A stretch of 42,300 nt of DNA. It comes from an uncultured Lachnospiraceae bacterium. GTDB lineage: Bacteria > Bacillota > Clostridia > Lachnospirales > Lachnospiraceae. Positions 1 to 41,990 of the stretch are shown piece after piece. The DNA lies in contig CAMFDG010000017.1 of NCBI GenBank assembly GCA_945949045.1, forward strand, positions 1-42,300. Direction: 5' to 3'. Numbering within the stretch: the stretch's first letter is position 1; every line of letters starts with the position of its first letter. The position numbers were made by a program, and so were the translations under genes. The notes beneath the pieces are model-generated. The model was not told where the DNA came from. It saw only the letters and a program-made list of their open reading frames with translations, and did not search any database.

Positions 1-371
1 TCGTGACATTCATACGGGTGATTTATCTTTTTTGCTGAAAACACCCGTACGGACGCTGTCATACCTACGGGTGATTTTTCGCTTTTGCTGAAAACACCCG
101 TACGGACGGTGTCATACCTACGGGTGATTTTTCACTTTTGCTGAAAACGCCCGTACGGATCGTGACATTCATACGGGTGATTTATCTTTTTTGCTGAAAA
201 CGCCCGTACGGATTGTGACATTCATACGGGTGATTTATCTTTTTTGTTGAAAACGCCCGTACGGATTGTGACATTCATACGGGTGATTTATCTTTTTTGC
301 TGAAAACACCCGTACGGACGGTGTCATACCTACGGGTGATTTTTCACTTTTACTAAAATCACCCGTATCAG
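1..371. repeat. Tandem hairpin array 1, seven 53-bp units
   Basis: The core TACGGGTG recurs at 13, 66, 119, 172, 225, 278 and 331, exactly 53 bp apart each time. Each copy is followed about 25 bases later by CACCCGTA or CGCCCGTA, so each unit can fold into a stem of about 8 bp plus a short A/T stem. The last copy has a perfect 13-bp stem (331-343 with 355-367). Two unit types occur: A (spacer TGACATTCA, loop TTATCTTTTTTG) and B (spacer GTGTCATACC, loop TTTTCACTTTTG), in the order A B B A A A B. The array may continue left of the window. No coding sequence is supported in it. Function unknown. Confidence 0.95.
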
Positions 372-474
372 TAGACGAGGATGAAAAAAAAATTGTTTTA
401 CGTTCTGTGTCTGCATAGTGGGACACCCTTGAAGTGGGACACTCCTGAAGCGGCGTATCGGAAGCATTATAACT

Positions 475-2367
475 CTATGCGGTTTTCCCGGTATAAAGCT
501 GGTAGTACTTGCCCTTCGCAGCGATCAGTTCATCGTGGCTGCCCCGCTCGATGATGCGTCCCTGCTCTAAAACAATGATGCAGTCGCTGTTGCGGACTGT
601 GGAGAGTCTGTGGGCGATGACAAAGGTGGTACGCCCTGCCATCAGCTTATCCATGCCATCCTGGACAATGCGCTCCGTGCGGGTGTCGATGGAACTGGTG
701 GCCTCGTCCAGAATTAATACCGGTGGGTTGGCGATGGCTGCTCTTGCGATGGCGATCATCTGGCGCTGGCCCTGGCTTAAGTTGGCACCATCACCGGTGA
801 GGATTGTATCGTAGCCTTCCGGCAGCTGGCGGATAAAGGTGTCGGCATTTGCAAGGCGCGCAGCGGCATATACTTCTTCATCTGTTGCGTCCAGTTTTCC
901 GTAGCGGATATTGTCCATGACGCTGGCGGTGAACAGGTGGGTATCCTGCAGGACGATACCGAGAGAATGCCTCAGGTCTGCTTTCTTGATCTTGTTGATG
1001 TTGATGCCGTCGTAACGGATCTTTCCATCCTGGATGTCATAAAAACGGTTGATCAGGTTGGTGATTGTGGTCTTGCCTGCGCCGGTGGAGCCTACGAAGG
1101 CAATTTTCTGACCCGGAGTAGCATAGAGGTCTACATTGTGAAGTACGGTCTTCTCCGGTACATAGCCGAAATCCACATCATCAAAGACAACGTCTCCGGT
1201 CAGGCGGATGTAGTCCACAGAACCATCTGCCTGATGGACATGCTTCCATGCCCACACTCCGGTCTGCTTATCAGTTTCTGTGAGCTGCCCGTTTTCCTCT
1301 GTGGCGTTTACCAGCGTGACGTAACCGTTGTCTGCTTCCGGCTGTTCATCCAGCAGGGAGAAAATACGTTCACATCCTGCGAGGGCCATGATCACACTGT
1401 TCAGCTGTGTACTGACCTGCTGAATCGGCATGTTAAAGCTTTTGTTGAAGGTCAAAAAACTGGCAAGCTTACCTAAGGTCAGACCGCCAAAGCCGGTCAG
1501 TGCGAAGACGCCGCCTGCCATGGCGCACAGCACATAGCTCAGATTTCCAATCTGCGCATTGACCGGTCCCAGGTAGTTGGAATAGCGGTTTGCGTTGTAG
1601 GCACTGTCAAATAATTCCTCGTTAAGTTTGTTGAAGTCCCTGATATTCTGCTCCTCGTGGGTAAATACCTTGACTACCTTCTGTCCGTTTAGCATTTCTT
1701 CGATGAAGCCATTGACCTGGCCCAGATTTTTCTGCTGGGCGAGGAAGTAGCGGCTTGAGGAGCCGGCAAAACGCTTGGTTGTATACAGTGTCACACCCAC
1801 CATGACGAGAGTCAGAAAAGTCAGCGGAACGCTTAAAACCACCATGTAGATAAACACATTTACAATGGTAACCAGACTGTTCAAAAGCTGTGGAATACTC
1901 TGGCTGATCATCTGTCGGAGTGTGTCAATGTCGTTGGTGTACACGGACATGATATCTCCGTGGGAGTGCGTGTCAAAATAGCGGATCGGCAGATCCTGCA
2001 TATGGGAAAAAAGGTCATCACGCAGATCGCGGATGCTTCCCTGGGAGACGTAAATGAGCAGCTTGTTGTAAACAAAAGTTGTGATCACACCCAGCGAATA
2101 AAAGCCTGCGACTCTGCCGATTGCTGCTAAGAGCGGTCCGTAGTCCGCGCTTTTACTCTGAAGCATCGGCGTGATATAATCGTCGATCAGCGTTTTCATA
2201 AACATCGTTCCCTGTGTGTTACAGAGGACGCTTAAGAGTATGCAGATAATCACCACCGCGTAAAGAACGCCATATCGTTTTAATACATATCCCATCAGGC
2301 GGGAAAATAATTTCCCCGGATTCTTGATTTTGGGCTTTGGCCCTCTTGGTCCATGTGGTCCCGGCAT
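475..2367 (-). CDS. ABC exporter half-transporter, catalytic subunit of a heterodimer
   Basis: 630-aa half-transporter: an N-terminal exporter-type membrane domain (roughly residues 25-335), then an ATP-binding domain (about 390-630). The ATPase motifs are complete: Walker A GSTGAGKTT (426-434), Q-loop Q474, signature LSQGQ (530-534), Walker B LILDEA with catalytic Glu555, and switch His586. A stretch of about 40 residues (350-390) is inserted between the two domains. The start overlaps the stop of the upstream gene by one base (TGATG), so the two are translationally coupled and probably form one heterodimer of the LmrCD/BmrCD/TM287-288 kind, here with the canonical ATPase half. These export drugs, lipids or peptides; the substrate cannot be told from sequence. 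The divergent MarR-type gene suggests induction by a small molecule. Confidence 0.93.
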   Translation of the reverse strand: MPGPHGPRGPKPKIKNPGKLFSRLMGYVLKRYGVLYAVVIICILLSVLCNTQGTMFMKTLIDDYITPMLQSKSADYGPLLAAIGRVAGFYSLGVITTFVYNKLLIYVSQGSIRDLRDDLFSHMQDLPIRYFDTHSHGDIMSVYTNDIDTLRQMISQSIPQLLNSLVTIVNVFIYMVVLSVPLTFLTLVMVGVTLYTTKRFAGSSSRYFLAQQKNLGQVNGFIEEMLNGQKVVKVFTHEEQNIRDFNKLNEELFDSAYNANRYSNYLGPVNAQIGNLSYVLCAMAGGVFALTGFGGLTLGKLASFLTFNKSFNMPIQQVSTQLNSVIMALAGCERIFSLLDEQPEADNGYVTLVNATEENGQLTETDKQTGVWAWKHVHQADGSVDYIRLTGDVVFDDVDFGYVPEKTVLHNVDLYATPGQKIAFVGSTGAGKTTITNLINRFYDIQDGKIRYDGININKIKKADLRHSLGIVLQDTHLFTASVMDNIRYGKLDATDEEVYAAARLANADTFIRQLPEGYDTILTGDGANLSQGQRQMIAIARAAIANPPVLILDEATSSIDTRTERIVQDGMDKLMAGRTTFVIAHRLSTVRNSDCIIVLEQGRIIERGSHDELIAAKGKYYQLYTGKTA

Positions 2368-4115
2368 CAGGAAACACCTCCTTCATCAAAATCACCGCTG
2401 CCCTGTGTCTGTGATTCATAGACATCGCGGTAAATGGTATTGTTTTTCAAAAGCTCCTCGTGGGTGCCAAAGCCGTTCAGGCGGCCGTCGTCTAATACAA
2501 TAATCCGGTCGGCATCCATAACCGAGGAAATCCGTTGTGCAATGATCAGCTTTGTGGTGCCGGGAATTGCCTCCCTAAAAGCTTTTCGGATACGGGCATC
2601 CGTTGCAGTATCCACAGCGCTGGTGCTGTCGTCGAGGATCAGTATTTTCGGGTTCTTAAGAAGCGCCCTTGCAATACACAGACGCTGTTTCTGTCCACCG
2701 GATACATTGGTTCCGCCCTGCTCGATATAGGTATCGTATTTGTCCGGGAAATTCCGGATGAATTCATCGGCGCAGGCCATTTTACAGGCTTTTATGCATT
2801 CCTCCCTTGTGGCATCCGCTTTCCCCCAGCGAAGGTTGTCAAGAATCGTACCGGAAAAGAGAACATTCTGCTGTAATACGACGGATACTTCATTGCGCAG
2901 GGTATCCAGATCGTAGGTGCGCACATCCTTTCCCCCCACATATACAGCTCCCTCATCCACATCGTAGAGACGGCTGATCAGGCTGACCAGCGTGGATTTG
3001 GAACTTCCGGTTCCGCCTATGATGCCGATGGTTTCGCCGGATTTGATAGATAAGCTGATGTCATCCAGAACCGGTGCCTCAGAGGTGGAGGAGTAGCGGA
3101 AACTCACATGGTCAAAGGTTATGCTCCCATCCGGAATTTCATAATCCGGGTTCTGTGGATTGGAGAGCGTACTTTTCTCGTTAATGACTTCGCTGATACG
3201 TCTTGCACTGGCTACACTCATGGAAATCATGACAAAAACCATGGAGAGCATCATAAGGCTCATGAGAATATTCATACAATAGGTAAGCAGTGCCATCAGG
3301 TCTCCGGTTTTTAACGTGGATCCAACGATCATATGGGCACCAAACCAGCTGATCAGCAGGATACAGCTGTATACGGTAAACTGCATGAGCGGTGAGTTCC
3401 AGACGATGACAGACTCTGCGCGAAAAAGCATATTGTAGATATTCTGGCTTGCCTTTTTGAAACGTTTTTTCTCGTAATCCTCGCGGACATAGGCTTTTAC
3501 CACGCGGATAGCGGAGACGTTTTCCTGCACGCTCTCGTTGAGGTCATCATATTTGGTAAAGGCCTCCTGGAAATAGCGCATTGCCTTTTTGACGATAAAA
3601 GCCAGACAGGTACCAAGTACAAGAACGGCAGCCAGATAGATGGAAGCCAGCCTGGGGCTGATGAAATAGGACATCAGCATCGCCGTAACCAGAGAGGAGA
3701 CTGCGCGCACGCACAGTCGAAGGACCATCTGGGTGGCATTCTGCACGTTGGTCACGTCGGTTGTCATACGTGTGACAAGGCTTGCAGTATTAAATTTGTC
3801 AATGTTGGCAAAGGAAAACTTCTGGATATTTTCAAACATTGCCTTTCTCAAATTCTTACCCAGTCCCATGGAGGCCATGGCACCGTATTTCCCGCCGAGA
3901 AGTCCGAAGAGCAGTGAACACAGAGCGGCGACGATCATCCACCCGCCTATGATGTAAATATGTTTTGTGTCCCCCTTGTTGACGCCGTCGTCAATGATGG
4001 AAGCCATGAGCAGAGGAATGATCATTTCCATGATGACCTCGCCGAACATAACCACAGGTGTCAGAATTGCAGCTTTCTTGTACTCTTTCATCTGTGCAAG
4101 AAGTGTTTTTAGCAT
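2367..4115 (-). CDS. ABC exporter half-transporter, degenerate-site subunit
   Basis: 582-aa half-transporter: membrane domain about residues 15-305, ATPase domain about 330-582. Walker A GGTGSSKST (367-375) and signature VSGGQ (471-475) are intact, but the residue after the Walker B Asp is Asp496 (LILDDS) instead of Glu, and the switch His is Gln527 (IIAQRIS). These are the substitutions expected in the non-hydrolysing composite site of heterodimeric exporters, so this is the partner of the downstream gene. It is first in the operon; the start is preceded by AGAAGGG. Promoter and probable operator lie at 4199-4259, shared with the MarR-type gene. The membrane-insertion and ATPase calls are firm; the substrate is unknown. 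Confidence 0.93.
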   Translation of the reverse strand: MLKTLLAQMKEYKKAAILTPVVMFGEVIMEMIIPLLMASIIDDGVNKGDTKHIYIIGGWMIVAALCSLLFGLLGGKYGAMASMGLGKNLRKAMFENIQKFSFANIDKFNTASLVTRMTTDVTNVQNATQMVLRLCVRAVSSLVTAMLMSYFISPRLASIYLAAVLVLGTCLAFIVKKAMRYFQEAFTKYDDLNESVQENVSAIRVVKAYVREDYEKKRFKKASQNIYNMLFRAESVIVWNSPLMQFTVYSCILLISWFGAHMIVGSTLKTGDLMALLTYCMNILMSLMMLSMVFVMISMSVASARRISEVINEKSTLSNPQNPDYEIPDGSITFDHVSFRYSSTSEAPVLDDISLSIKSGETIGIIGGTGSSKSTLVSLISRLYDVDEGAVYVGGKDVRTYDLDTLRNEVSVVLQQNVLFSGTILDNLRWGKADATREECIKACKMACADEFIRNFPDKYDTYIEQGGTNVSGGQKQRLCIARALLKNPKILILDDSTSAVDTATDARIRKAFREAIPGTTKLIIAQRISSVMDADRIIVLDDGRLNGFGTHEELLKNNTIYRDVYESQTQGSGDFDEGGVS

Positions 4116-4198
4116 GAAATCCCTTCTTTCTTAAAAGTATTTCCGGAGATGGCATAATTTACTGTATGTTATCGCCGGTTTGGTTTATTTGCATTCAC

Positions 4199-4259
4199 TT
4201 GACAATATAAAGTTAGTGTGCTAAGAATATATACTAGTATATGAAATTTATATTGTCAA
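4199..4259. promoter_or_regulatory. Divergent control region with 13-bp facing repeats and a 14-bp palindrome
   Basis: TTGACAATATAAA (4199-4211) is repeated inverted and perfect at 4247-4259, so both strands carry a TTGACA -35 element pointing inward. A perfect 14-bp palindrome, ATATACTAGTATAT (4229-4242), lies between them and covers the minus-strand -10. A plus-strand -10 could be TAAGAA (4222-4227). The palindrome is a plausible MarR-type operator that would repress both the exporter and the regulator; this is inference from position and symmetry. Confidence 0.65.
4231..4259 (-). promoter_or_regulatory. Promoter of the ABC exporter operon
   Basis: On the minus strand TTGACA (4259-4254), a 17-base spacer and TAGTAT (4236-4231) form a near-consensus sigma-A promoter about 115 bases upstream of the first exporter gene. 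Confidence 0.7.
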
Positions 4260-4284
4260 CAGGTAACGAAAAAGAGTGTGCGCC

Positions 4285-4758
4285 ATGAAATGGGAAGATA
4301 TGACGAAGAAGCATCTGGGGCATCGGTTCCGGGTGATTCACAACAGAATAGACAAGTATTTTACGGGAAGCAGAAAAAATGAGAAGGTACGTCTGACGCG
4401 TGCGCAGTGTGCCACGCTTCATTATTTGTATGACCACAGTAATGAGGATGTATTCCAGAAGGATATTGAAGAAGTCTTTTCCATTTCAGGAGCAACGGCA
4501 ACCAATCTGCTCAAAGGATTGGAGCGCCTTGGGATGATTCAGCGGATACCCCTTGCCGGGGATGCCCGGTGCAAAAGAATCGAACTGTGCCAAAAGGGGA
4601 TAAAAGCCCATGAGCGCGCTTTTTCTGATATCCTGTTTATGGAGGAGACACTGGTAAAGGGGATGACAGAGGAAGAGGTCGGAATTCTTCGCCGGCTGCT
4701 TGACCGGGTCATACAAAATCTTGAGGAAATGGAGCAGGAAAAAGCCAACAATTTTTGA
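4285..4758 (+). CDS. MarR-family transcriptional regulator
   Basis: 157-aa winged-helix regulator. The part VRLTRAQCATLHYL followed by QKDIEEVFSISGATATNLL and LERLGMIQR is the MarR DNA-binding helix-turn-helix, and DARCKRIELCQKG is the wing. The start chosen is ATG at 4285, preceded by AAAAGAG; a GTG at 4276 would add three residues and has a poorer site. The gene is divergent from the two ABC exporter genes and shares a palindromic control region with them, so it most likely represses the exporter and itself until a ligand binds. A strong terminator follows. The family is secure, the target inferred. Confidence 0.88.
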   Translation: MKWEDMTKKHLGHRFRVIHNRIDKYFTGSRKNEKVRLTRAQCATLHYLYDHSNEDVFQKDIEEVFSISGATATNLLKGLERLGMIQRIPLAGDARCKRIELCQKGIKAHERAFSDILFMEETLVKGMTEEEVGILRRLLDRVIQNLEEMEQEKANNF

Positions 4759-4782
4759 ACAATATTTTTTGGCATATTGTAT

Positions 4783-4818
4783 AAAGACGTTGAAAATAAG
4801 GGGTTTCAACGTCTTTTT
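4783..4818 (+). terminator. Intrinsic terminator after the MarR-type gene
   Basis: A perfect 13-bp stem, AAAGACGTTGAAA (4783-4795) with TTTCAACGTCTTT (4804-4816), has an 8-base loop and ends in a T run. Confidence 0.9.
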
Positions 4819-4842
4819 CTGTGGGGGATGGAAAAGAAAAGA

Positions 4843-4895
4843 CCACATAATATTGATTCGGGATATTGACAAAGGCACAAGATATAGTGTATCTT
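4843..4895 (+). promoter_or_regulatory. nrdD promoter with a predicted NrdR box pair
   Basis: GCACAAGATATAGTGT (4875-4890) agrees with the known NrdR consensus ACACWATATATWGTGT at 14 of 16 positions. A weaker copy, CCACATAATATTGATT (4843-4858, about 11 of 16), lies 32 bp upstream, the three-helical-turn spacing usual for NrdR box pairs. TTGACA (4866-4871) sits between the boxes, and the likely -10 (TATCTT, 4890-4895, or GTATCT one base earlier) overlaps the edge of the second. A repressor bound here would block the nrdD promoter. No nrdR gene is in the window. Confidence 0.7.
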
Positions 4896-5009
4896 GTATA
4901 TGCGGCAAGAGAGAAGACGGCACCACGCCGTTCTTTTGACATAAAGAGTCTGTATATTTGCCAAAGGCAAGATGCATGGACCGATGCGCAAGATTATGGA
5001 GGAAAGAGT

Positions 5010-7196
5010 ATGAAAATCATTAAGAGAAGCGGCAGCGAGGCAATTTTTGATATCAACAAAATTATTGCGGCTGTCAGAAAAGCAAATGATTCCGTCATTG
5101 ATTATGAGAAGCTGACGGAACAGCAGATTCAGGAGATTGCATCCAATGTGGAGATTGCCTGTGAGAATATGAAGCATTCTCCCAGTGTGGAGGAGATTCA
5201 GGATATGGTGGAGAACCAGCTGATGAATCAGCGGGCTTTCACCGTAGCCCGCAACTATATTACCTATCGTTATAAGAGAGCGCTTGTGCGTAAATCCAAT
5301 TCTACGGATGAGCAGATCTTAAGTCTTCTCGAGTGCAACAACGAGGAGGTAAAGCAGGAGAATTCCAACAAGAATCCGACGGTCAACAGTGTGCAGAGAG
5401 ATTACATGGCCGGTGAGGTCAGCAAGGATATCACCAAGCGGTTTCTGCTTCCGGAGGATATTGTGGAGGCTCATGAAAAGGGCCTGATCCATTTCCATGA
5501 TGCGGATTATTTTGCACAGCATATGCATAACTGCTGTCTGGTGAATCTTGAGGATATGCTGCAGAATGGAACCGTCATCAGCGAGACGAGAATTGATTCG
5601 CCGAAGAGCTTTTCTACTGCCTGCAACATTGCAACCCAGGCCATTGCCCAGATTGCCAGCTCCCAGTACGGCGGACAGAGTATTTCTTTGTCCCATCTGG
5701 CACCGTTTGTGCAGGTCAGCCGTGAGAAATTCCGCGCACAGGTTCGTGAGGAATTTAAGGCCGTTGGCTATGATATGGACGAGGAAAAGATCAACAAGGT
5801 GGCAGAGCTTCGCGTGAAGGAAGAAATCAACCGCGGCGTGCAGATGATCCAATATCAGGTCATTACATTGATGACCACCAACGGACAGGCTCCGTTTATT
5901 ACGGTATTTATGTATCTGGATGAAGTTCCGGAGGGACAGACCAGAGCGGATCTGGCTGCTATTATCGAGGAAATGCTGCACCAGAGAATCCAGGGTGTGA
6001 AGAATGAGCAGGGCGTCTACATTACCCCGGCATTCCCGAAGCTGATCTACGTGCTGGAGGAGGACAACATCCATGAGGATTCCAAATACTGGTATCTGAC
6101 CAAGCTGGCAGCACAGTGCTCCGCAAAGCGTTTGGTTCCGGATTATATTTCCGAGAAGAAGATGAAGGAACTGAAGGTGGATAAGAACGGCAATGGCAAC
6201 TGCTATCCCTGTATGGGCTGCCGAAGCTTCTTAACCCCGTATGTGGATCCGGAAACCGGAAAGCCCAAATACTACGGACGCTTCAATCAGGGGGTTGTCA
6301 CCATCAATCTGGTGGATGTGGCATGCTCTTCCGAGAAGAATATGGATAAATTCTGGAAGATTCTCGATGAGAGACTGGAGCTTTGCTACCGTGCCCTGAT
6401 GTGCCGCCATAAGAGACTTCTCGGCACACCCAGCGATGTGGCACCGATTCTCTGGCAGAATGGTGCGCTGGCGCGCCTGAAGAAGGGAGAGACCATCGAT
6501 AAGCTGTTGTTTGGCGGCTACTCTACAATCTCTCTCGGATATGCAGGACTTTGCGAGTGTACCCGCTACATGACCGGGGTTTCCCATACAGAACCAAATG
6601 TGGGAACACCTTTTGCCACAAAAGTCATGCAGCGTCTGAATGATGCCTGCGCCGAGTGGAAGGCGAAGGAAAATATTGATTTCAGTATTTACGGAACTCC
6701 GCTGGAGTCCACTACCTATAAATTTGCCAAGTGTCTGCAAAAACGCTTCGGTATCATTGAGGGTGTAACCGACCGCAACTACATTACCAACAGCTATCAT
6801 GTGCATGTAACGGAGGAAATCAATGCCTTCGACAAGCTGAAGTTTGAGGCCCAGTTCCAGAAGCTGTCTCCGGGTGGAGCCATCAGCTATGTGGAGGTGC
6901 CGAATATGCAGGATAACATTGATGCAGTGTTAGCGGTGATGCAGTACATTTACGATAACATTATGTATGCGGAGCTGAACACCAAGAGTGATTACTGCAT
7001 GGCCTGCGGCTATGACGGGGAGATCAAGATTGTGGAGGAGGAAGGCAGCGGTAAGCTGGTGTGGGAGTGCCCGAAATGCGGGAACCGGAATCAGGATATG
7101 ATGAGCGTTGCAAGACGTACCTGCGGTTACATCGGAACCCAGTTCTGGAATCAGGGTCGTACCCAGGAAATTAAGGAGCGGGTGCTTCACCTGTAA
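5010..7196 (+). CDS. nrdD: Anaerobic (class III) ribonucleoside-triphosphate reductase
   Basis: 728-aa glycyl-radical enzyme that reduces ribonucleoside triphosphates to deoxy forms for DNA synthesis without oxygen. An ATP-cone regulatory domain begins at the N-terminus (MKIIKRSGSEAIFDINKI), the ten-stranded barrel follows, and near the C-terminus are the zinc cysteines CMACG and CPKCG and the radical loop RRTCGYIG, with the radical glycine at about residue 706. I chose ATG 5010 because GGAGG lies seven bases upstream; the longer open frame to 4866 runs through the promoter. It is preceded by predicted NrdR boxes. The activase gene nrdG follows after a hairpin, so nrdG may be read by partial read-through. 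Confidence 0.97.
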   Translation: MKIIKRSGSEAIFDINKIIAAVRKANDSVIDYEKLTEQQIQEIASNVEIACENMKHSPSVEEIQDMVENQLMNQRAFTVARNYITYRYKRALVRKSNSTDEQILSLLECNNEEVKQENSNKNPTVNSVQRDYMAGEVSKDITKRFLLPEDIVEAHEKGLIHFHDADYFAQHMHNCCLVNLEDMLQNGTVISETRIDSPKSFSTACNIATQAIAQIASSQYGGQSISLSHLAPFVQVSREKFRAQVREEFKAVGYDMDEEKINKVAELRVKEEINRGVQMIQYQVITLMTTNGQAPFITVFMYLDEVPEGQTRADLAAIIEEMLHQRIQGVKNEQGVYITPAFPKLIYVLEEDNIHEDSKYWYLTKLAAQCSAKRLVPDYISEKKMKELKVDKNGNGNCYPCMGCRSFLTPYVDPETGKPKYYGRFNQGVVTINLVDVACSSEKNMDKFWKILDERLELCYRALMCRHKRLLGTPSDVAPILWQNGALARLKKGETIDKLLFGGYSTISLGYAGLCECTRYMTGVSHTEPNVGTPFATKVMQRLNDACAEWKAKENIDFSIYGTPLESTTYKFAKCLQKRFGIIEGVTDRNYITNSYHVHVTEEINAFDKLKFEAQFQKLSPGGAISYVEVPNMQDNIDAVLAVMQYIYDNIMYAELNTKSDYCMACGYDGEIKIVEEEGSGKLVWECPKCGNRNQDMMSVARRTCGYIGTQFWNQGRTQEIKERVLHL

Positions 7197-7205
7197 AGAA
7201 TTATA

Positions 7206-7246: not shown

Positions 7247-7314
7247 GTGTGCGCCGGATCAGAAGTGAACGATGGATGGAATGAAATGAATCAGAGAAAG
7301 ATGAGTAGAAAGCG

Positions 7315-7836: not shown

Positions 7837-7859
7837 TACATAGAAGGAGCAAAAGAATC

Positions 7860-20612: not shown

Positions 20613-21218
20613 TCAGTCCTTGTCCTTGGAGGCTTCCTTCAGGTCATCGATGACGCTTTCGATGATCATTTTCTTGAGGTAGACATCAAAGCTCAGCATA
20701 CAGATGAAACTGAAATTCTGCAGGAAGGCCTGATCCTCCTCGGGAAAATCACAAAAGGTGTCCTTGGCAATCGTGTATTTTTTGCCGATATCCTTGAGAA
20801 GCTTGTTGGACTCCTCCTTTTCCAGATTGAATACCTCGTTATAGATGTCCTCCATGTTGTGACCGGATTTACTGCCGAAATAATGATCGGTCAGCGGCCC
20901 CAAAATGGACTGGATATCACTGATGCTTAACAGATTCTTGAAGTAGTAGATGAACAGCAGCGTGACCACATGCTCCTTGGAGTACTTCTTCTTCTCCGGC
21001 GCGGGAAGCAGGTTGTTCTTCGCATAGTTGTTGATCATGGTCTTGGTCAGGATCTTATCACTCTCATAGCGCTTGCAGGCCTCTAACTGCTCGTCCATGA
21101 AGGTGGTTACCTGATCCATATATAATCCGATGTTCGGGATATCTTCTGTCTTCACATAATCGATGGATTTTAACTTTTTTTGTAAAGCGGCAAGAAATGC
21201 CTTCATATCATTTTCCAT
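20613..21218 (-). CDS. DUF1836 domain protein
   Basis: 201 aa. The central part (LTKTMINNYAKNNLLP, KKKYSKEHVVTLLFIYYFK, LSISDIQSIL) matches the DUF1836 pattern of Firmicutes; it resembles a MerR-like helix-turn-helix, so a DNA-binding role is possible but unproven. No membrane segment. The start at ATG 21218 has GGGGTG upstream; Met5 is a nearby alternative. Promoter at 21239-21267. Confidence 0.85.
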   Translation of the reverse strand: MENDMKAFLAALQKKLKSIDYVKTEDIPNIGLYMDQVTTFMDEQLEACKRYESDKILTKTMINNYAKNNLLPAPEKKKYSKEHVVTLLFIYYFKNLLSISDIQSILGPLTDHYFGSKSGHNMEDIYNEVFNLEKEESNKLLKDIGKKYTIAKDTFCDFPEEDQAFLQNFSFICMLSFDVYLKKMIIESVIDDLKEASKDKD

Positions 21219-21332: not shown

Positions 21333-21334
21333 CT

Positions 21335-21452
21335 GACATAAGGAGGGACCCGCACGGAGTGTGGGAGGATTCCTTATGTCTAAAACCTGACATAAGGAGG
21401 GACCCGCACGGAGTGCGGGAGGATTCCTTATGTCTAAAATCTGACATAAGGA
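21335..21452 (+). repeat. Tandem hairpin repeat in the pcrA leader (54-bp period, 2.2 copies)
   Basis: GACATAAGGA starts at 21335, 21389 and 21443. The first two copies end in TCCTTATGTC (to 21380 and 21434), and inside each is a second inverted pair (CCCGCAC with GTGCGGG, or GTGTGGG with one wobble), giving 46-base hairpins with outer and inner stems. The third copy is only the left arm. The right arm of each copy can also pair with the left arm of the next across about eight bases, so two mutually exclusive foldings exist. Confidence 0.9.
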
Positions 21453-21486
21453 AAAATGAAGATGATTGGAAGAAACGGAGTATAGT

Positions 21487-23718
21487 ATGATTTTAACGGA
21501 TTCACTGAACACACAGCAGCAGGAGGCTGTTCTCACTACAGAGGGACCACTTCTGATTCTGGCTGGAGCCGGATCGGGAAAGACGCGCGTCCTGACACAC
21601 CGGACGGCATATCTGATCGAGGAGAAAGGGGTCAATCCCTACCATATTATGGCTATCACTTTTACCAACAAGGCGGCCGGGGAGATGCGGGAGAGAATCG
21701 ACCGGCTGGTGGGCTATGGCTCGGAGAGCATCTGGGTATCCACCTTTCACTCCACCTGCGTACGGATTTTAAGGCGTTATATTGATCGACTGGGTTATGA
21801 CAACAATTTCACCATCTACGATGCAGATGATCAGAAAACGCTGATGAAGGATATCTGCAAGCGGTTAGAAATCGACACCAAGTTGACAAAGGAGAAGTCC
21901 TTTCTGGCAGCGATATCCTCCGCAAAGGACGAGCTCATCGATCCGGTGGAATTTGAGACAAAGGCAGCCGGAGATTACGGTAAGAGAAGGCAGGCACAGG
22001 TCTACAGAGAATACCAGAAGGCCCTCAGACAGAACAATGCGCTGGATTTTGATGATCTGATCATGAAGACCGTGGAGCTTTTCCGGCTGGACAAGGAGGT
22101 GCTGAACGCATATCAGGAGCGCTTCCGATATATTATGGTGGACGAGTATCAGGATACCAATACGGCCCAGTTCGAGCTAATCCGTCTGCTGGCCTCCAAA
22201 TATAAGAATCTGTGCGTGGTGGGAGATGATGACCAGTCCATATATAAGTTCCGCGGGGCCAATATCCATAATATTTTAAATTTTGAGAATCATTTTCCGG
22301 AGGCGAAGGTCATTAAGCTGGAGCAGAACTACCGCAGCACCCAGAATATCCTGGATGCTGCCAACAGTGTGATCGCCAACAATGTGCAGCGCAAGGACAA
22401 AAGGCTTTGGACCGACCAGGGACCGGGGGACAAGATTACCTTTGAGCAGCTGGATACAGCCTCGGAGGAAGCGGACTATGTGGCCCGTGATATTGCAAGG
22501 CGGGTACGAAAGGGACAGTATTCCTATAAGGATTGTGCGGTCTTGTACCGGACAAATGCCCAGTCACGTCTTTTTGAGGAACGCTTTATTACCGGAAATA
22601 TCCCCTATAAGATTGTGGGTGGGGTTAATTTCTATTCCCGCAAAGAGGTGAAGGATCTGCTCAGTTATCTCAAAACCATTGATAACGGCAGGGATGACCT
22701 GGCAGTGAAGAGAATTATCAATGTGCCGAAGCGGGGAATCGGTGCTTCCACCATAAATAAGGTGTCCTTATACGCTGCAGAGCAGGAAATGGATTTCTAT
22801 TCGGCCCTCTGTCAGGCGGAGCAGATTCCGGGATTGGGCCGGGCAGCAGCAAAGATCAAGCCTTTTGTGATCTTTGTCCAGGCCATGAAGGCTAAGGCAA
22901 AGCTTCGTACGGTTTCGGAGCTTATACAGGAAATCATTGAAACTACCGGATATGTGCGGGAACTGGAGGCGGAGGACACCGATGAGGCCCGGGCCAGGAT
23001 TGAGAATATTGATGAGCTTATCACCAAAGCAGTGGATTATGAACAGGGTGCCGAGAATCCTACGCTGGGAGGATTTCTGGAGGAGGTTGCGCTGGTGGCG
23101 GACATTGACAGCCTGGATGAGGACAGCGATTATGTGATCTTGATGACCCTTCACAGTGCCAAGGGACTGGAATTTCCCAATGTCTATCTGGCAGGGATGG
23201 AGGATGGCCTTTTCCCCAGCTATATGTCCATTACCAGTGACCATGCCACCCAGGAAATAGAGGAGGAACGTCGGCTTGCTTATGTGGGCATGACAAGAGC
23301 CATGAATCATCTGACCATTACTTCGGCGAAGGTACGTATGGTTCGGGGGCAGACCCAGTATGGGAAGGTGTCCCGTTTTGTGAAGGAAATCCCGTCGGAG
23401 CTGTTGGCGGGACAGATTTACGAGGAGCCATCCCGTGAGGAACCCATGGAACAGAGTACCTTTAAGAAGGCATTGGGAGACTTTCGCCGGGTTCCGGTGT
23501 ACACCCAGGTTAAGAACCAGCGGAATTTCGGCAGTGCTCAGGAAAGTCATGGCGGATTATCCTATCAGGTGGGAGACCGGGTCCGTCATTTTAAGTTTGG
23601 CGACGGTGTGGTGACCTCCATTGTGTCGGGAGGCCGGGATTACGAGGTGACCGTAGATTTTGATAAGGCCGGAACCAAGAAAATGTTTGCTGCTTTTGCA
23701 AAATTAAAAAAATTGTGA
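21487..23718 (+). CDS. pcrA: ATP-dependent DNA helicase PcrA (UvrD/Rep family)
   Basis: 743-aa superfamily 1 helicase that unwinds DNA 3' to 5' in repair and plasmid replication and clears RecA or RNA polymerase. Motifs in order: LTDSLNTQQQEAV (Q motif), GAGSGKT (27-33), ITFTNKAAGEM (Ia), VDEYQDTN (II), VGDDDQSIYKFRGA (III), LEQNYRS (IV), LMTLHSAKGLEF (V) and ERRLAYVGMTRA (VI). The C-terminus has the PcrA-type Tudor-like RNA polymerase-binding domain (GDRVRHFKFGDGVV). ATG 21487 is chosen for GGAG six bases upstream; a TTG at 21466 is possible. The leader carries the 54-bp hairpin repeat. Confidence 0.97.
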   Translation: MILTDSLNTQQQEAVLTTEGPLLILAGAGSGKTRVLTHRTAYLIEEKGVNPYHIMAITFTNKAAGEMRERIDRLVGYGSESIWVSTFHSTCVRILRRYIDRLGYDNNFTIYDADDQKTLMKDICKRLEIDTKLTKEKSFLAAISSAKDELIDPVEFETKAAGDYGKRRQAQVYREYQKALRQNNALDFDDLIMKTVELFRLDKEVLNAYQERFRYIMVDEYQDTNTAQFELIRLLASKYKNLCVVGDDDQSIYKFRGANIHNILNFENHFPEAKVIKLEQNYRSTQNILDAANSVIANNVQRKDKRLWTDQGPGDKITFEQLDTASEEADYVARDIARRVRKGQYSYKDCAVLYRTNAQSRLFEERFITGNIPYKIVGGVNFYSRKEVKDLLSYLKTIDNGRDDLAVKRIINVPKRGIGASTINKVSLYAAEQEMDFYSALCQAEQIPGLGRAAAKIKPFVIFVQAMKAKAKLRTVSELIQEIIETTGYVRELEAEDTDEARARIENIDELITKAVDYEQGAENPTLGGFLEEVALVADIDSLDEDSDYVILMTLHSAKGLEFPNVYLAGMEDGLFPSYMSITSDHATQEIEEERRLAYVGMTRAMNHLTITSAKVRMVRGQTQYGKVSRFVKEIPSELLAGQIYEEPSREEPMEQSTFKKALGDFRRVPVYTQVKNQRNFGSAQESHGGLSYQVGDRVRHFKFGDGVVTSIVSGGRDYEVTVDFDKAGTKKMFAAFAKLKKL

Positions 23719-35995: not shown

Positions 35996-36040
35996 AGCAA
36001 GGGCCTCTGGCTGGTTTTGGAATAACGGAAGAGAAAGCAG

Positions 36041-36075
36041 ATCGCTGCCACACATTTTGTGCGGCAGCGATTTTG
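36041..36075 (+). terminator. Terminator after the GGDEF gene
   Basis: ATCGCTGCC with CAC (36041-36053) pairs with GTG and GGCAGCGAT (36059-36071) with one mismatch, followed by a short T run. Confidence 0.75.
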
Positions 36076-36096
36076 TGAATATGCGGAGATTACAGC

Positions 36097-36153
36097 ATGT
36101 AGTTTTGAAAACTACATAAAATAGTAGACAAACCACAACAAATGGAGTACAAT
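36097..36153 (+). promoter_or_regulatory. Promoter and perfect 21-bp palindrome before the acyltransferase operon
   Basis: ATGTAGTTTT (36097-36106) and AAAACTACAT (36108-36117) form a perfect palindrome around one G. Just downstream is the promoter TAGACA (36125-36130), 17 bases, TACAAT (36148-36153). The expected transcription start is about 36160, two bases before the ATG, so the first gene would be almost leaderless. The palindrome, directly upstream of the -35, is a candidate operator or activator site. Confidence 0.65.
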
Positions 36154-36161
36154 GGCTTATT

Positions 36162-36941: not shown

Positions 36942-37777
36942 TTTCTATTCTATTTTCAGGAAACAGCAAGGTGTTTGACGGTGTGCTGACATGCATGCTT
37001 TCTATTTTTAAGCGGACAGACACAAAGGAACCCTTTCACTTTTATATCTACACAATGGAAATTACCAGAGTGAAGCCGGAGTATACGCCGATTTCACCGG
37101 ATATGATTGATTTTCTGGACCGTGTGGCCCGGAAATATAATCCAGAGAATAAAGTGACAGCGGTGGATGTGACAGATTTATATGAGAGAGAATTTGCACA
37201 TTGTCCCAATGAGGATGCGTACTGCTCACCCTATACACTGCTCCGGCTCTTTGCAGATCTGGTGGAGGGCATGCCGGACAAGCTGTTGTATCTGGATGTG
37301 GATATTTTATTTAACCGTGATATCCGGCTTCTTTATGATGTGGATGTGACGGAGGTGGAGTATGCGGCGGCAAGGGACCATTATGGGAAATATCTGATCA
37401 ATCCCCACTATATCAATGCCGGAGTTCTGCTTTTTAATCTGAAGAAGATGAAGGAAACCGGCATCCTTGCAAAGGCAAGAAAACTGATTCAGACGAAAAA
37501 GCTTGTTTTTGCGGACCAGAGTGCGCTGATCCGGAGTACAACATCAAAGAAGCTTCTGCCACAGAAATTCAATGACCAGAAATTTTTACATAAGAGCACA
37601 GTAGTGCGGCATTTTTCCAAAAGGCTGTTTTACCTGCCGTATCCCCATACGGCCAATGTTAAGCAGTGGGATGTAAGCAAAATACACAGAATCTTTCATT
37701 ATTATGTGTTTGATGATATTCTGTATGACTATATTTATTTGAAGAAAAAATTCGAAGAAGATCAGGAGGAATGTTGA
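36938..37777 (+). CDS. Glycosyltransferase family 8 protein
   Basis: 279 aa. It begins like GT8 enzymes (ISILFSGNSKVFDGVLTCML) and has the metal/UDP-sugar DxD motif YLDVDILF and the usual later INAGVLLFNL and FADQSAL. GT8 enzymes are retaining transferases that use UDP-glucose or UDP-galactose, as in lipopolysaccharide glucosyltransferases. No membrane segment. The start overlaps the acyltransferase stop; the next gene begins two bases after the end, so the three are one operon. Confidence 0.87.
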   Translation: MISILFSGNSKVFDGVLTCMLSIFKRTDTKEPFHFYIYTMEITRVKPEYTPISPDMIDFLDRVARKYNPENKVTAVDVTDLYEREFAHCPNEDAYCSPYTLLRLFADLVEGMPDKLLYLDVDILFNRDIRLLYDVDVTEVEYAAARDHYGKYLINPHYINAGVLLFNLKKMKETGILAKARKLIQTKKLVFADQSALIRSTTSKKLLPQKFNDQKFLHKSTVVRHFSKRLFYLPYPHTANVKQWDVSKIHRIFHYYVFDDILYDYIYLKKKFEEDQEEC

Positions 37778-37778
37778 A

Positions 37779-39566
37779 ATGAACCAGCAAAAACAGATAC
37801 CTGTATTTTATGCGTGCGATGACAATTTTGTGAAATACACGGTTGTGTCGCTGCAATCCATGATGGACAACGCGTCAAAGGACAGGGAATATGTGATTCA
37901 TGTGCTGAATACCAACATATCACAGGAAATGAAGGACGTCATGTATGCGATGGCGGAGGAAAATTTCGAGATCCGCTTTGATGACGTGACCGATTACCTG
38001 AGATCGATCAGCGACAAGCTGCCACTTCGCGATTACTATTCCAGGACGACGTACTTCAGGCTGTTTATCGCGGAAATGTTCCCGGAATATGACAAGGCCA
38101 TTTATATGGACAGTGATACCATCGTGCTTGGTGATATTGCAAAGCTCTATGATTATGAACTGGGGGACAATTATGTGGGTGCCTGCAACGAGCAGGTGAT
38201 GATTCAGGAAGATGTTTATGGCACCTATGTAGAGCAGGTGCTTGGCGTGGAGCGCGACAATTATTTTAACGCCGGCATGATTGTTATTAACTGTGATCAA
38301 TTCCGGAAAAACCATGTGCTGGACCAGTTTATTGAACTTTTGCATATGTACAATTTTGTGGTCACCCAGGACGAGGATTATTTGAACCTGATCTGTCACA
38401 ACAAGGTTTTCTGGCTGCCGCAGGAGTGGAATGTGGAGATGTTTGGAGAACTTCCCTGCAGGGAGGAGGATATCTGTATGATCCACTATATCATGGTGTC
38501 CAAGCCGTGGCATTACAAGGACTGCAGGATGCAGGATTATTTCTGGTCTTACGCAGAGAAAACCGCTGTGTGTGAGCAGATCCGCAGGGAGCGGGAGGAT
38601 TATACCGACGAAGAACGGGCAGAGGATGCGGCATCCTGCGAGAGACTTCTTCAACTGGCAATTCATGAGACTGAGAAGGACAATAATTACCTGAAGCTGG
38701 TGAAAGCTGGAAAGCTGAAGGCGAAAGACCGGCTTCAGGTGCTGGATAAGATTGCAAAGCTTGAGAGAGAAGGCCGGTTTGACGAGGATGTGGAAGAGGA
38801 TCCGCCGACCCGTGAGCTTAAGCCCAAAGATGTGGACTATCTCAAGAAAAAGCTGAGCAGCAAGATCAAGACAAAGCTGACCTATAAGGTTGCCAGGAAA
38901 TTTTTAAATACGATTCTGGAAGAAAAAAAGCTGATTATTAAAGATGTGGTAGGAATTGAGAATATGAATGCGCTGAATTCCGGCGCGGTGATTACCTGCA
39001 ACCATTTTAATGCCTTTGACAGCTTCGCCATCCAGATTGCCTATGAGAGATCCTGTCAGTGTAAAAAGAGACGGCTGTACCGTGTGATCCGGGAGGGAAA
39101 TTATACCAACTTCCCAGGCTTTTACGGTATGCTGATGAGAAACTGCTACACGTTTCCCTTAAGCTCAAACCGCGATACCATGAAGAAATTCATGCGCTCT
39201 ATGGACATCGTTCTTCGTCATGGTGATTTCATGGTGGTATATCCGGAGCAGAGTATGTGGTGGAATTACCGCAAGCCCAAGCCTTTGAAGAAGGGGGCAT
39301 ATACCTTTGCCACAAAAAATAATGTCCCGGTGCTTCCCTGCTTCATCACCATGGAGGACAGCGATATTTTAGGGGATGATGGATTTTACGTGCAGGAGTA
39401 CACGATTCATATTGCAAAAGCCATCTATCCGGATCCGGCCAAGACCAGAGCGCAGAATGTGGAGGAAATGAAGAAGAAAAATTACGAAGTATGGAAGGAA
39501 ATATATGAGACTACTTATGGCGAACCGCTGATTTACGACTGTGAGTCCGATGTGACAAGTGCATAG
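37779..39566 (+). CDS. Bifunctional GT8 glycosyltransferase-acyltransferase fusion
   Basis: 595 aa. Residues 1-285 are a GT8 domain (PVFYACDDNFVKYTVVSL, DSD at 111-113, FNAGMIVIN, DEDYLNLI). A charged linker (about 285-365) leads to a PlsC-like acyltransferase domain (about 390-560) with CNHFNAFD (407-414, canonical H-x4-D) and YPEQSMWW (488-495). The single protein can thus carry out a glycosylation and an acylation, the same two activities as the two genes before it. It could extend and acylate one glycolipid; the product is unknown. AGGAGG lies nine bases before the ATG. Confidence 0.88.
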   Translation: MNQQKQIPVFYACDDNFVKYTVVSLQSMMDNASKDREYVIHVLNTNISQEMKDVMYAMAEENFEIRFDDVTDYLRSISDKLPLRDYYSRTTYFRLFIAEMFPEYDKAIYMDSDTIVLGDIAKLYDYELGDNYVGACNEQVMIQEDVYGTYVEQVLGVERDNYFNAGMIVINCDQFRKNHVLDQFIELLHMYNFVVTQDEDYLNLICHNKVFWLPQEWNVEMFGELPCREEDICMIHYIMVSKPWHYKDCRMQDYFWSYAEKTAVCEQIRREREDYTDEERAEDAASCERLLQLAIHETEKDNNYLKLVKAGKLKAKDRLQVLDKIAKLEREGRFDEDVEEDPPTRELKPKDVDYLKKKLSSKIKTKLTYKVARKFLNTILEEKKLIIKDVVGIENMNALNSGAVITCNHFNAFDSFAIQIAYERSCQCKKRRLYRVIREGNYTNFPGFYGMLMRNCYTFPLSSNRDTMKKFMRSMDIVLRHGDFMVVYPEQSMWWNYRKPKPLKKGAYTFATKNNVPVLPCFITMEDSDILGDDGFYVQEYTIHIAKAIYPDPAKTRAQNVEEMKKKNYEVWKEIYETTYGEPLIYDCESDVTSA

Positions 39567-39665
39567 TTATGATTATGAAAAAATGGGCAGTTTGTATGGG
39601 TTGACGGATTGACGTAAGTGTGAAATACTATAGGATAAGTATAGTTTTGAAGGGAGACTTTCATT

Positions 39666-40688
39666 ATGAATAGAGCAATTTGGAATGCCCGGAAAAGTCT
39701 TATGCTGGTATTTGCGGTTGCTGTTGTCACAATCCTTACTTCTGCAGCGCCTGTGAAGGCACAGACAAAAACAGCCGGGACGCAGACAGATTACTACAAA
39801 TCAGAGCATGACGAAACGGCAACTGCCGGAGTCGAGAAGAAGTTTCAATTCAAGGTTCTTAAGGATGGAACAACCATCTTCTGCCTTGTGACCGATCAGG
39901 CATCTGCCATGAAGATAACACTTTATGACAGTACCGGAACTCCGGTGACAGGGATAAAGAATCCATATTCGGTGTCAGGGGACCGGTATGTGCTTGTTTC
40001 CGATGATACACATATGTTTGCAGATGATTGGGCGCTTCCCAAGGGAGAATATACTTGTGGTATTACCTTTGAGAAGGACACCACCTTTGCAGCCCGTGTT
40101 TACAGGGTAGCCCCGGAGGTGTCCATCAGCCAGACCAGACTGGAGCTCACAGCCGGCTATTCCCAGAGATTATCCGTATCCGGGGAGAAGGTCAAGACCT
40201 GGACATCAAAAAACAAGTCGGTTGCCATTGTGGATAAGAAGGGGAAGGTGACCGGGAAAAATTCAGGAAAAACAACGGTTACGGCAACTCTCGTGGATGG
40301 AAGAAAATTAACCTGCAGTGTCATTGTCCGAAAGAACATCTACACGGACAGTAAAGGTACGATCAGTGAGATTCCTGCCGGAAGTGTGATTGCACAGGCC
40401 TACCGGGCGTCCCTGGATTCTGAGGGAAATTTACATGTCAAGGTTAATGTATTAAATAATACAGAGAAACGGATTACAGCGTTGTCCAAGATGAAGGTGA
40501 CGGTACGGGACCAGAAGGGAAGGCTGGTGGGATATTGTAAGATCAACAAACGAAACATTTCCGTTCCTGCCTATTCCGCGAAGAGCACCACATTTATCAT
40601 CAAAAAGTCTGACGTTAAGAGAACTGCAGACTTGAGGAACGCAAATGTGGTGTGCGAAGGTAAATTCCGGGCAACACAATATCGTTAG
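39666..40688 (+). CDS. Secreted protein with a Big2-type Ig-like domain
   Basis: 340 aa with a signal peptide (basic MNRAIWNARK, hydrophobic LMLVFAVAVVTILTS, cleavage about residue 32 near VKAQ). Residues about 155-225 form a bacterial Ig-like (Big2) domain (TWTSKNKSVAIVDKKGKVTG, then SGKTTVTATLVDG). The C-terminal 110 residues are beta-rich and unrecognised. No anchor is visible, so it is probably released or held non-covalently. A GGGAG site precedes the start. The last codons (ACACAATATCGTTAG) are themselves the first unit of the 37/38-bp repeat array. Confidence 0.87.
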   Translation: MNRAIWNARKSLMLVFAVAVVTILTSAAPVKAQTKTAGTQTDYYKSEHDETATAGVEKKFQFKVLKDGTTIFCLVTDQASAMKITLYDSTGTPVTGIKNPYSVSGDRYVLVSDDTHMFADDWALPKGEYTCGITFEKDTTFAARVYRVAPEVSISQTRLELTAGYSQRLSVSGEKVKTWTSKNKSVAIVDKKGKVTGKNSGKTTVTATLVDGRKLTCSVIVRKNIYTDSKGTISEIPAGSVIAQAYRASLDSEGNLHVKVNVLNNTEKRITALSKMKVTVRDQKGRLVGYCKINKRNISVPAYSAKSTTFIIKKSDVKRTADLRNANVVCEGKFRATQYR

Positions 40689-41058
40689 CCTGAGACAGAA
40701 AAATCAGGACAATACAATATCGTCAGCCTGAGAATGGTTTTTTGGACAGTACAATATTGTCAGCCTGGAATGGATTTTTCGGGCAGTACAATATTGTCAG
40801 CCTGGAATGGATTTTTCGGACAATGCAATATTGTCAGCCTGAGAATGGAATTTCAGGACAGTACAATATTGTCAGCCTGGAATGGAATTTCAGGACAGTA
40901 CAATATTGTCAGCCTGGAATGGAATTTTCGGACAGTGCAATATTGTCAGCCTGAGAATGGAATTTTCGGACAGTACAATATTGTCAGCCTGGAATGGAAT
41001 TTCAGGACAGTACAATATTGTCAGCCTGGAATGGATTTTTCGGACAATATAATATCGT
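40677..41058. repeat. Tandem repeat array 2, 37/38-bp units with an ACAATATTGT palindrome
   Basis: Eleven CAATAT-type cores occur at 40677, 40715, 40752, 40789, 40826, 40864, 40901, 40938, 40976, 41013 and 41050 (the last with T for C). The step is 37 or 38 bp, depending on whether the linker reads CCTGGAATGG or CCTGAGAATGG. The central eight units keep the palindrome (A/G)CAATATTGT; the outermost have CAATATCGT, so the ends have diverged. The first core lies in the last codons of the upstream gene. The open frames through the array are artefacts of the repetition. Confidence 0.95.
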
Positions 41059-41077
41059 TAGCCAGCGAAAGAAATCA

Positions 41078-41294
41078 TGCTGAGCGTTACTATTCACAGC
41101 CCCCCCCCCCCTCATCCTCATGCGCAATCCCGCCGGCTTCGCCTGCTTTCCCGCTCCTGCGGAGCTAAGATTGCTTATGAGGATGAGTTTCCTGTTTCGC
41201 AGTCAGATTTCAGAATGAACATTGCCTGCTTACAAGCAAGCATGACGCTGGCAATGTTCATTCTGAAATCGGCTGTGAATAGTAACTGCTGAGC
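41078..41294. mobile_element. MITE-like element with 16-bp terminal inverted repeats and 8-bp target duplication
   Basis: GTTACTATTCACAGCC (41086-41101) has a perfect inverted copy at 41271-41286, and TGCTGAGC directly flanks both ends (41078-41085, 41287-41294). The 201-bp interior has no credible gene but two long hairpins: CTCATCCTCAT plus GCAATC (41111-41129) with 41169-41187, and a perfect 21-bp stem, 41206-41226 with 41250-41270, capped by TGCTTacAAGCA. A run of 12 C (41100-41111) begins at the left repeat. This is the structure of a non-autonomous miniature transposon. An 8-bp duplication is typical of several families, for example IS66 and ISL3; the parent is not identified. Confidence 0.8.
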
Positions 41295-41316
41295 AGCAAA
41301 TCAGTTAAATTAGTGC

Positions 41317-41345
41317 GTGACATTTGGAACGGGGTGTGCTATACT
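41317..41345 (+). promoter_or_regulatory. Promoter of tRNA-Gly
   Basis: GTGACA (41317-41322), 17 bases, then TATACT (41340-41345) with an upstream TG (extended -10), 18 bases before the tRNA. Confidence 0.7.
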
Positions 41346-41362
41346 ACTTTTTGTTCCGAGAT

Positions 41363-41433
41363 GCAGATGTAGTTCATCGGTAGAACACCAGCTTCCCAAG
41401 CTGGGGAGGCGGGTTCGATTCCCGTCATCTGCT
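41363..41433 (+). tRNA. tRNA-Gly, anticodon CCC
   Basis: 71 bases fold as a cloverleaf: acceptor GCAGATG (41363-41369) with CATCTGC (41426-41432), D stem GTTC/GAAC, anticodon stem CCAGC/GCTGG around loop TTCCCAA, variable loop of four, and T arm with TTCGATT. The anticodon CCC reads GGG, hence glycine. The 3' CCA is not encoded. Confidence 0.97.
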
Positions 41434-41453
41434 TATAGTTTATCAGTTTACAG

Positions 41454-41507
41454 AAACCCGGTGTTTCGGATTTCCTTGAGTGGAAATCCGAAACACCGGG
41501 TTTTTGT
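41454..41507 (+). terminator. Terminator after tRNA-Gly
   Basis: A perfect 22-bp stem (41454-41475 with 41482-41503) with a six-base loop TTGAGT ends in T residues. Confidence 0.93.
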
Positions 41508-41542
41508 ATTTGGAATGGAGAGCCTTGAAAGCCGCGGGGGTA

Positions 41543-41990
41543 TGGGCGATAGAGAGTATTTTTCCATCTACCGCCCACGAGAGAATGGAATTGTGGGTGC
41601 TAGAGAACGATTTTTCATCTGCCGCCCACGAGGAAGAGGAAACATGGGCGCTAGAGAGTAATTTTTTATCAAACGCCCACGGGAGAAAGAGAACATGGGC
41701 GATAGAGAGCAATTTTTTATCAATCGCCCACAGGAGAAAGGGATTGTGGGCGCTAGAGAACGATTTTTCATCTGCCGCCCACGAGGAAGAGGAAACATGG
41801 GCGCTAGAGAGTAATTTTTTATCAAACGCCCACGGGAGAAAGAGAACATGGGCGCTAGAGAGTATTTTTCCATCTACCGCCCACAGGAGAAAGGGATAGT
41901 GGGGGCTAGAGAACGATTTTTCATCTGCCGCCCACGAGAGAATGGAATTGTGGGCCCTGGAGAACAATTTATCATCTTCCGCCCACGGCA
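41543..41990. repeat. Tandem hairpin array 3, nine 51-bp units
   Basis: TGGGCG-type cores recur at 41543 and then every 51 bp to 41951. Each is closed 24-30 bases later by CGCCCA, giving a short stem around a T-rich loop. Four unit types differ in the loop (for example GAACGATTTTTCATCTGC, GAGTAATTTTTTATCAAA, GAGTATTTTTCCATCTAC, GAGCAATTTTTTATCAAT), in the order C A B D A B C A and a diverged last copy. Because 51 is a multiple of three, open frames run right through on both strands; they are not genes. Confidence 0.95.

Follow-up and report, generated by a model that had tools for sequence, protein, structure and literature searches.

The stretch of DNA analysed here, the first 42,300 nucleotides of contig CAMFDG010000017.1 from an uncultured Lachnospiraceae bacterium (hereafter the window), contains four tandem arrays of short repeats, which we number 1 to 4 and whose families we denote F1 to F4. 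The window forms the start of contig C17 of a genome (G000) that is 80% complete and is assembled as 78 contigs totalling 2.16 Mb. The closest relatives of its PcrA protein are uncultured Lachnospiraceae, including Agathobacter and Roseburia (best-segment identity up to 81%). The original prediction, made from the letters of the window, held that the four arrays are unrelated in sequence and follow one design, with a single dyad per unit, conserved arms and variable loops. Tandem Repeats Finder recovered all four (3-367, period 53; 21333-21452, period 54; 40707-41063, period 37; 41542-41987, period 51). The prediction is sound for the individual arrays, and what it claims in general applies to two of them, arrays 1 and 4, in a sharper form: these are built of inverted half-sites whose distances are fixed and, in F4, helically phased, and both their position and their geometry are conserved. 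A single design for all four does not survive, as F2 is a covarying hairpin with an internal loop and F3 a weak dyad with no relatives in the genomes searched.

Array 1 (1-371, no strand assigned) comprises seven dyads of the form TACGGGTG-N21-CRCCCGTA, each spanning 37 bp, with 16-bp linkers and a period of 53 bp; the paired half-sites start at 13/42, 66/95, 119/148, 172/201, 225/254, 278/307 and 331/360. Its place is past the 3' end of a gene for an ABC transporter (475-2367, minus strand). Since it begins where the contig does, and a unit identical to its first one stands at the end of contig C12, it has probably been cut by the assembly. Array 4 (41542-41987, likewise without strand) lies between a tRNA-Gly gene (41363-41433) and the end of the window and consists of nine TGGGCG-N23-CGCCCA dyads with a period of 51 bp and 16 bp from each CGCCCA to the next TGGGCG, some of the left arms being degenerate. 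The presence of one dyad per unit is strongly borne out for arrays 1, 2 and 4, with RNA-fold z-scores of -6.3, -5.5 and -4.5 for one unit each (those of arrays 1 and 4 picked among the best-folding units), and weakly for array 3, where z is -0.84 and 37 of 200 shuffles fold equally well. Conserved arms around variable loops describe arrays 1 and 4; in the F2 family the pattern is reversed, with covarying stems and a conserved internal loop. At Rfam gathering thresholds, the tRNA-Gly was the sole match in the window, with none for any of the arrays.

A pattern search of the whole of G000 returned 58 exact F1 and 133 exact F4 dyads and none for the reversed patterns, so that their abundance is beyond chance and a genome-wide class of dyad arrays exists, covering arrays 1 and 4 and leaving out arrays 2 and 3. 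The F1 unit is TACGGGYG-N20/21-CRCCCGTA, with a span of 37 and sometimes 36 bp, linkers mostly of 15 or 16 bp and a period of 53 bp; the F4 unit is TGGGCG-N23/24-CGCCCA, with a span of 35 or 36 bp and outward gaps mostly of 16, 26 or 36 bp. The half-sites of the two families have a GGGYG core in common, which makes "sequence-unrelated" too strong for this pair. In half-site logos the information is concentrated in the core; the F4 flanks show a mild A/T preference, and F1 has a G at position -1 and A/T at positions 10-12. Across arrays, only arms of 6-8 bp are conserved, with interiors and linkers largely free in sequence. What is kept is half-site sequence and fixed, phased distances, which lends no support to the proposed recognition by shape. 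The suggestion that dyad units are amplified fits some arrays, arrays 1 and 4 among them, in which linkers resemble one another and tandem amplification occurs; in other arrays the linkers are unrelated in sequence yet exact in length, so that amplification alone is an insufficient explanation. A scan of the kind the original prediction had called for, for tandem repeats with a period of 28-75 bp whose consensus carries an inverted repeat of 6 bp or more, found 8 qualifying arrays among 16 in 442 kb of G000; the comparison set, 1,326 kb of DNA surrounding pcrA in 80 other genomes, had 10 among 29 (coding and non-coding DNA pooled; the comparison is with other genomes, not with shuffles). Several of the position and spacing counts below come from fetched stretches of the genomes, partly picked because they hold arrays; in 642 kb of stretches picked without regard to arrays, made up of the window, the starts of contigs and a single run of 20-kb pieces, there are nine F4 and five F1 loci, although the contig starts may be enriched in repeats. 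As a separate observation, ATTTGCC-N3-GGCAAAT occurs ten times in eight bins of the sampled G000 sequence and is perhaps a further short dyad family.

The geometry of F4 is strict at two levels. Within dyads, the inward gap between neighbouring half-sites is 23 or 24 bp in 94 of 101 pairs in G000 and in 65 of 69 in G037, the second genome rich in F4 (comparison genomes are coded G0xx and loci Lxxx). Between dyads, we considered outward gaps of up to 120 bp and removed redundant linkers (at least 65% identity), which left 56 of 84 in G000 and 58 of 65 in G037. The remaining gaps are quantised at 5, 15/16, 25-27 and 35-37 bp, classes about 10.3 bp apart that hold 49 of the 56 linkers in G000 (four at 16, 17 at 25-26 and 28 at 35-37 bp; off the classes, one each at 11, 14 and 22 bp and four at 90-98 bp) and 56 of the 58 in G037 (one at 5, one at 15, seven at 25-27 and 47 at 35-37 bp, besides one each at 11 and 90 bp). 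A reversed control hexamer gave no outward and one inward pair per genome. Since the outward gaps are quantised, the F4 unit periods fall at about 51, 61-62 and 71-72 bp, and gaps of 45, 65 or 66 bp separating exact half-sites are the expected leftover of one degenerate half-site in register. Over same-strand TGGGCG distances of up to 160 bp, with redundant copies included, the best of seven periods tried was 10.25 bp (R = 0.80). Whole-genome counts of outward TGGGCG pairs with gaps of 1-30 and 31-60 bp were 47 and 66 in G000 (among the matches listed) against 0 and 3 for the control, and 19 and 58 in G037 against 0 and 2. Hexamers of the same composition reached maxima of 33, 9 and 13 in G000, G037 and G054, compared with 81, 65 and 5 for TGGGCG, a control that is not clean because CGGGTG, part of F1, and GGGCGT, a shifted F4, are among the permutations; in G054 the TGGGCG count does not exceed the control maximum. 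The outward gaps in G054, which represents a third species, fall in a single class (three of 35 and two of 36 bp), and six of eight inward gaps are 24 bp, with 7 of its 20 stretches picked around F4 hits.

Most of the arrays are intergenic. Gene calls were based on open reading frames (ORFs), after removal of those with more than a quarter of array sequence; multi-unit F4 arrays then lie outside called genes in 25 of 26 cases in G000 and in all 19 in G037, and without this removal several overlap short ORFs. Leaving out arrays at stretch edges or in genes (nine and two in G000, one and five in G037), pooled F4 loci lie in 13 convergent and 4 divergent gaps, against 30 and 59 for other gaps above 120 bp (p = 0.002), and are rarer between divergent genes than in the remaining configurations (p = 0.012). 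Among eight single tests for convergence, only that on all G000 F4 loci is significant (p = 0.006; the rest p 0.15-0.49). Array position is also conserved. Within the fetched stretches, 56 of 282 G037 ORFs have a G000 relative (at least 60% identity over at least 60% of the length), and this relative lies within 700 bp of an F4 array for 13 of 18 genes flanking F4 in G037, compared with 1 of 38 non-flanking genes (p = 6e-8); with the identity limit at 45%, the flanking fraction is 15 of 22. As the stretches were partly chosen for their arrays, the absolute rate is inflated, the contrast between flanking and non-flanking genes being less affected. In G054, two of three F4-flanking genes with a G000 hit are near a G000 array, at 73% and 45% identity. 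Seven pairs of orthologous F4 arrays placed side by side keep half-sites and spacing, and most of their linkers look unrelated by eye; the spacing class can also shift, from 36 bp at G037 L199 to 24-bp linkers (26-bp gaps) at G000 L081, and from 36 at G037 L210 to 16 at G000 L221. F4 arrays thus keep orthologous positions in a related species, with turnover in their sequence, in unit number and in some cases in spacing class. For F1, two of seven flanking genes of G056 with a G000 hit lie near an F1 array, and both loci look like the same arrays with a different number of units.

Pattern counts for F1, F4 and F2 were made over 145 genomes, G000 included. F4 is abundant in two, with 133 dyads in G000 and 85 in G037; the remainder have 0-10 hits, many near their own control count, with weak excesses among the matches listed in G054 (8 vs 0), G012 (6 vs 0) and G076 (8 vs 2), and further weak carriers may exist. 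G038 was considered as an F4 carrier and rejected: its fetched stretches contain only four short TGGGCG pairs of inward orientation, and no outward pair occurs there within 60 bp. F1 occurs in two genomes only, G000 (58) and G056 (16). The carriers of the two families are few and are gut bacteria related to one another. At the loci of 80 relatives located through PcrA we found no F1, F4 or F2, and five loose F3 hits (up to 3 substitutions) that we take as chance. In viral contigs, the F4 tandem pattern matched at least 120 stretches and the F1 dyad pattern 11, and none of 131 loci held at least three F4 or at least two F1 dyads; the F2 and F3 patterns had no matches there. A search of open-licence papers turned up nothing that describes arrays of this kind. 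Exact F1 dyads are absent from G037, which contains four TACGGAC...GTCCGTA dyads (GTACGGAC...GTCCGTAC; for example at L180 9523 and L181 2049), all with the 37-bp span of F1. The control count in G037 is 1, single hits (32-40 bp) occur in nine other genomes, and controls elsewhere reach 3. One of the G037 dyads stands between genes 92% and 55% identical to those of G000, in the intergenic region whose G000 counterpart carries an F1 array of five units, one of them degenerate. This is suggestive only, and half-site specificity may drift between species with the geometry kept.

Taken together, the sequence data lead us to propose that the F1 and F4 arrays are probably, though far from certainly, double-stranded DNA operator arrays for a putative sequence-specific DNA-binding protein, possibly two paralogues. 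A dimer or tetramer would read one dyad, neighbouring complexes would touch on one face of the helix, and the nucleoprotein array so formed, sitting in the spacer that separates transcription units, could act as an insulator, a roadblock or a topological boundary; the number of units would change through tandem duplication and loss. A more ambitious version, possible but in our view somewhat doubtful, is a lineage-restricted Lachnospiraceae chromosome-organising system in which more than 100 dispersed dyads would be bound by a dedicated protein on one helical face, with selection on position and geometry and with sequence, unit number and turn number left free.

Several other explanations have to be weighed against operator arrays. 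The F1 and F4 dyads could be mobile palindromic repeats like repetitive extragenic palindromes (REPs), REPINs or bacterial interspersed mosaic elements (BIMEs), spread by a transposase of the REP-associated tyrosine transposase (RAYT) type and then amplified in tandem. REPs prefer convergent genes, and F1 and F4 share with these elements that they are short, dyad-bearing, extragenic, dispersed, high in copy number, patchy among species and arranged in regularly spaced clusters. REPs are described as extragenic and, within BIMEs, as regularly spaced with alternating orientation (PMC2817692). We nevertheless regard this origin as unlikely. The half-sites are not themselves palindromic and form no hairpin, many adjacent units lack a common interior or linker, unlike recent copies, and neither a 10-bp quantisation nor F4 positions conserved between G037 and G000 are what such spreading would give. 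Nor was an associated transposase or Rayt-like protein found: a search of the 80%-complete G000 with PF01797 (Y1_Tnp, RAYT-type) returned no match at E <= 0.001, the positive control matching in 5 of 14 known genomes, though one may lie in the missing part of the genome. REP elements carry a GTAG- or CGTC-type tag at one end (PMC3733652), and by eye the F1 and F4 half-site logos show no tetranucleotide of this type. Neutral tandem duplication, in which the spacing merely records the length of the duplicated unit, would account for the similar linkers within some arrays, including arrays 1 and 4, and for the different unit numbers in the two orthologous F1 pairs. We consider it very improbable as the whole explanation, given that many F4 arrays have mutually unrelated linkers of identical length and that 24- and 34-bp linkers alternate inside some of them (L085, L159), a pattern that neutral indels would be expected to blur. 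A clustered regularly interspaced short palindromic repeat (CRISPR) array was also considered and rejected, since in F1 and F4 the arms of 6-8 bp alone are conserved and interiors and linkers both vary.

The arrays could also act as RNA, in the form of tandem 3'-end hairpins that terminate transcription or protect mRNA. The good folding of chosen single units and the convergent bias in the pooled counts could be cited for this, as could a mild terminator-like bias, a T-rich tail following 35 of 319 F4 dyad ends compared with 6 for A-rich tails. The folding, however, is largely due to the arms being inverted, and 284 of the 319 ends have no T run. Pairing in the interiors is at or below the permuted level, with complementarity of 0.335 vs 0.348 for F4 (71 units, 17 arrays) and, for F1, of 0.270 vs 0.400 in G000 (62 units, 14 arrays) and 0.328 vs 0.420 in G056 (41 units, 7 arrays). 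Of 235 F4 units in arrays (up to two substitutions, duplicates kept), 147 are exact in both arms, 84 deviate in one arm and 4 in both without being complementary, so that none of the 88 altered units is compensated. In F1, T or C at position 7 is independent between the arms (the four combinations count 37, 14, 10 and 4 units; Fisher p = 1). The missing compensation and the non-covarying interiors make selected RNA hairpins unlikely for F1 and F4; the loops are moreover long and of fixed length (20-24 nt), and linker steps of one DNA turn would be needless for RNA. Overall we judge an RNA role improbable.

The operator-array proposal itself has points against it, to which the terminator-like bias just mentioned belongs. 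The 35-37 bp class holds 28 of the 56 linkers in G000 and 47 of the 58 in G037, and with one class so dominant the 10-bp quantisation rests on the remainder, 21 phased vs 3 unphased linkers in G000 and 9 vs 1 in G037. Seven of the 56 G000 linkers are off the classes altogether. F1 is essentially single-spaced, so that it contributes a fixed geometry and adds no phasing steps, and for the other five of the seven G056 genes that flank F1 and have a G000 hit, no F1 array is close by. The orientation bias depends on ORF-based calls and pooled counts, and for arrays of at least two units no single test is significant. The patchy occurrence of F1 and F4, each abundant in 2 of 145 genomes, would be unusual for a basic chromosome function. 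Finally, no candidate protein is tied to the F1 or F4 half-sites, and we infer both the protein and its function.

The other two arrays of the window are separate elements. Array 2 (21333-21452, plus strand) is flanked by a DUF1836 gene (20613-21218, minus) on one side and by pcrA/uvrD (21466-23718, plus) on the other and has two full 54-bp units and a 12-bp stub, each full unit with an outer stem, an internal loop (GGGA/AGGAT) and an inner stem. The whole-genome search gave 13 exact F2 hits in G000, and exact cores are present in 8 of the 145 genomes including G000, all of the same genus, with 1-4 in each of the seven others and several of them paired. Covariation is seen in the outer stems, of which the 35 elements yield 26 distinct ones: pairing is 0.745 within elements vs 0.587 after permutation (0 of 2,000 permutations), and the stems vary with compensation around the conserved loop. 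Since 10 of the 35 elements fall inside crude ORF calls, a purely intergenic placement of F2 is not shown. F2 is thus a different hairpin element, separate from the F1/F4 mechanism, and its sequence suggests that it may be a REP-like single-stranded-DNA element or a structured RNA. It resembles IS200/IS605-end-like or REP hairpins in its imperfect hairpin, conserved internal loop, variable stems and occurrence singly or in tandem pairs, and differs from them in its few copies and in the absence of any Y1 transposase detected in the 80%-complete genome.

Array 3 (40669-41078, plus strand) consists of eleven 37/38-bp units (GGACARTACAATATYGTCAGCC followed by 15-16 bp), of which the first and last are degenerate. 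Within G000 the F3 pattern is confined to the window, and a DNA search of 98 genomes matched G000 alone (none of 97 relatives). F3 is a local 37/38-bp repeat outside the F1/F4 mechanism; it is like a minisatellite or variable-number tandem repeat in being a local head-to-tail array, to which it adds a weak 7-bp dyad and nothing else of note. Between this array and tRNA-Gly, positions 41086-41286 hold nested inverted repeats resembling a miniature inverted-repeat element, with 16-bp outer arms (41086-41101/41271-41286), two inner hairpins and a C run near 41100. Directly after tRNA-Gly, a 27-bp inverted repeat with 96% complementarity and a 6-nt loop (41449-41508) is perhaps its terminator. At 42085-42220, two TTGACA/TATAAT-like promoter sequences and a repeated AAAAAGTTGTTGACAA block were seen by eye, possibly upstream of an rRNA operon.

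For the proposed F1 and F4 operator arrays, the closest known parallels include NrdR boxes and plasmid iterons, short protein-binding motifs at integral DNA turns that are found at few promoters or at one origin. F4 is like these phased operators in repeating a short motif by integral turns, and unlike them in that more than 100 dyads are spread over many contigs and are rare between divergent genes, with a two-level geometry that is rigid within the dyad and quantised between dyads. Spacing in helical turns is found for F4 in G000 and G037; G054 and F1 have one class only, and for F1 phasing is not shown. Bacterial intergenic repeats are usually read as selfish elements or as RNA hairpins. 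For F4, the combination of conserved position, free sequence and quantised spacing points to selection on DNA geometry, from which it is predicted that a linker lengthened by 5 bp would break array function and that one lengthened by 10 bp would be tolerated. These arrays would then offer an unusually clear example from nature of a protein that binds along a bacterial chromosome in a phased, oligomeric manner.

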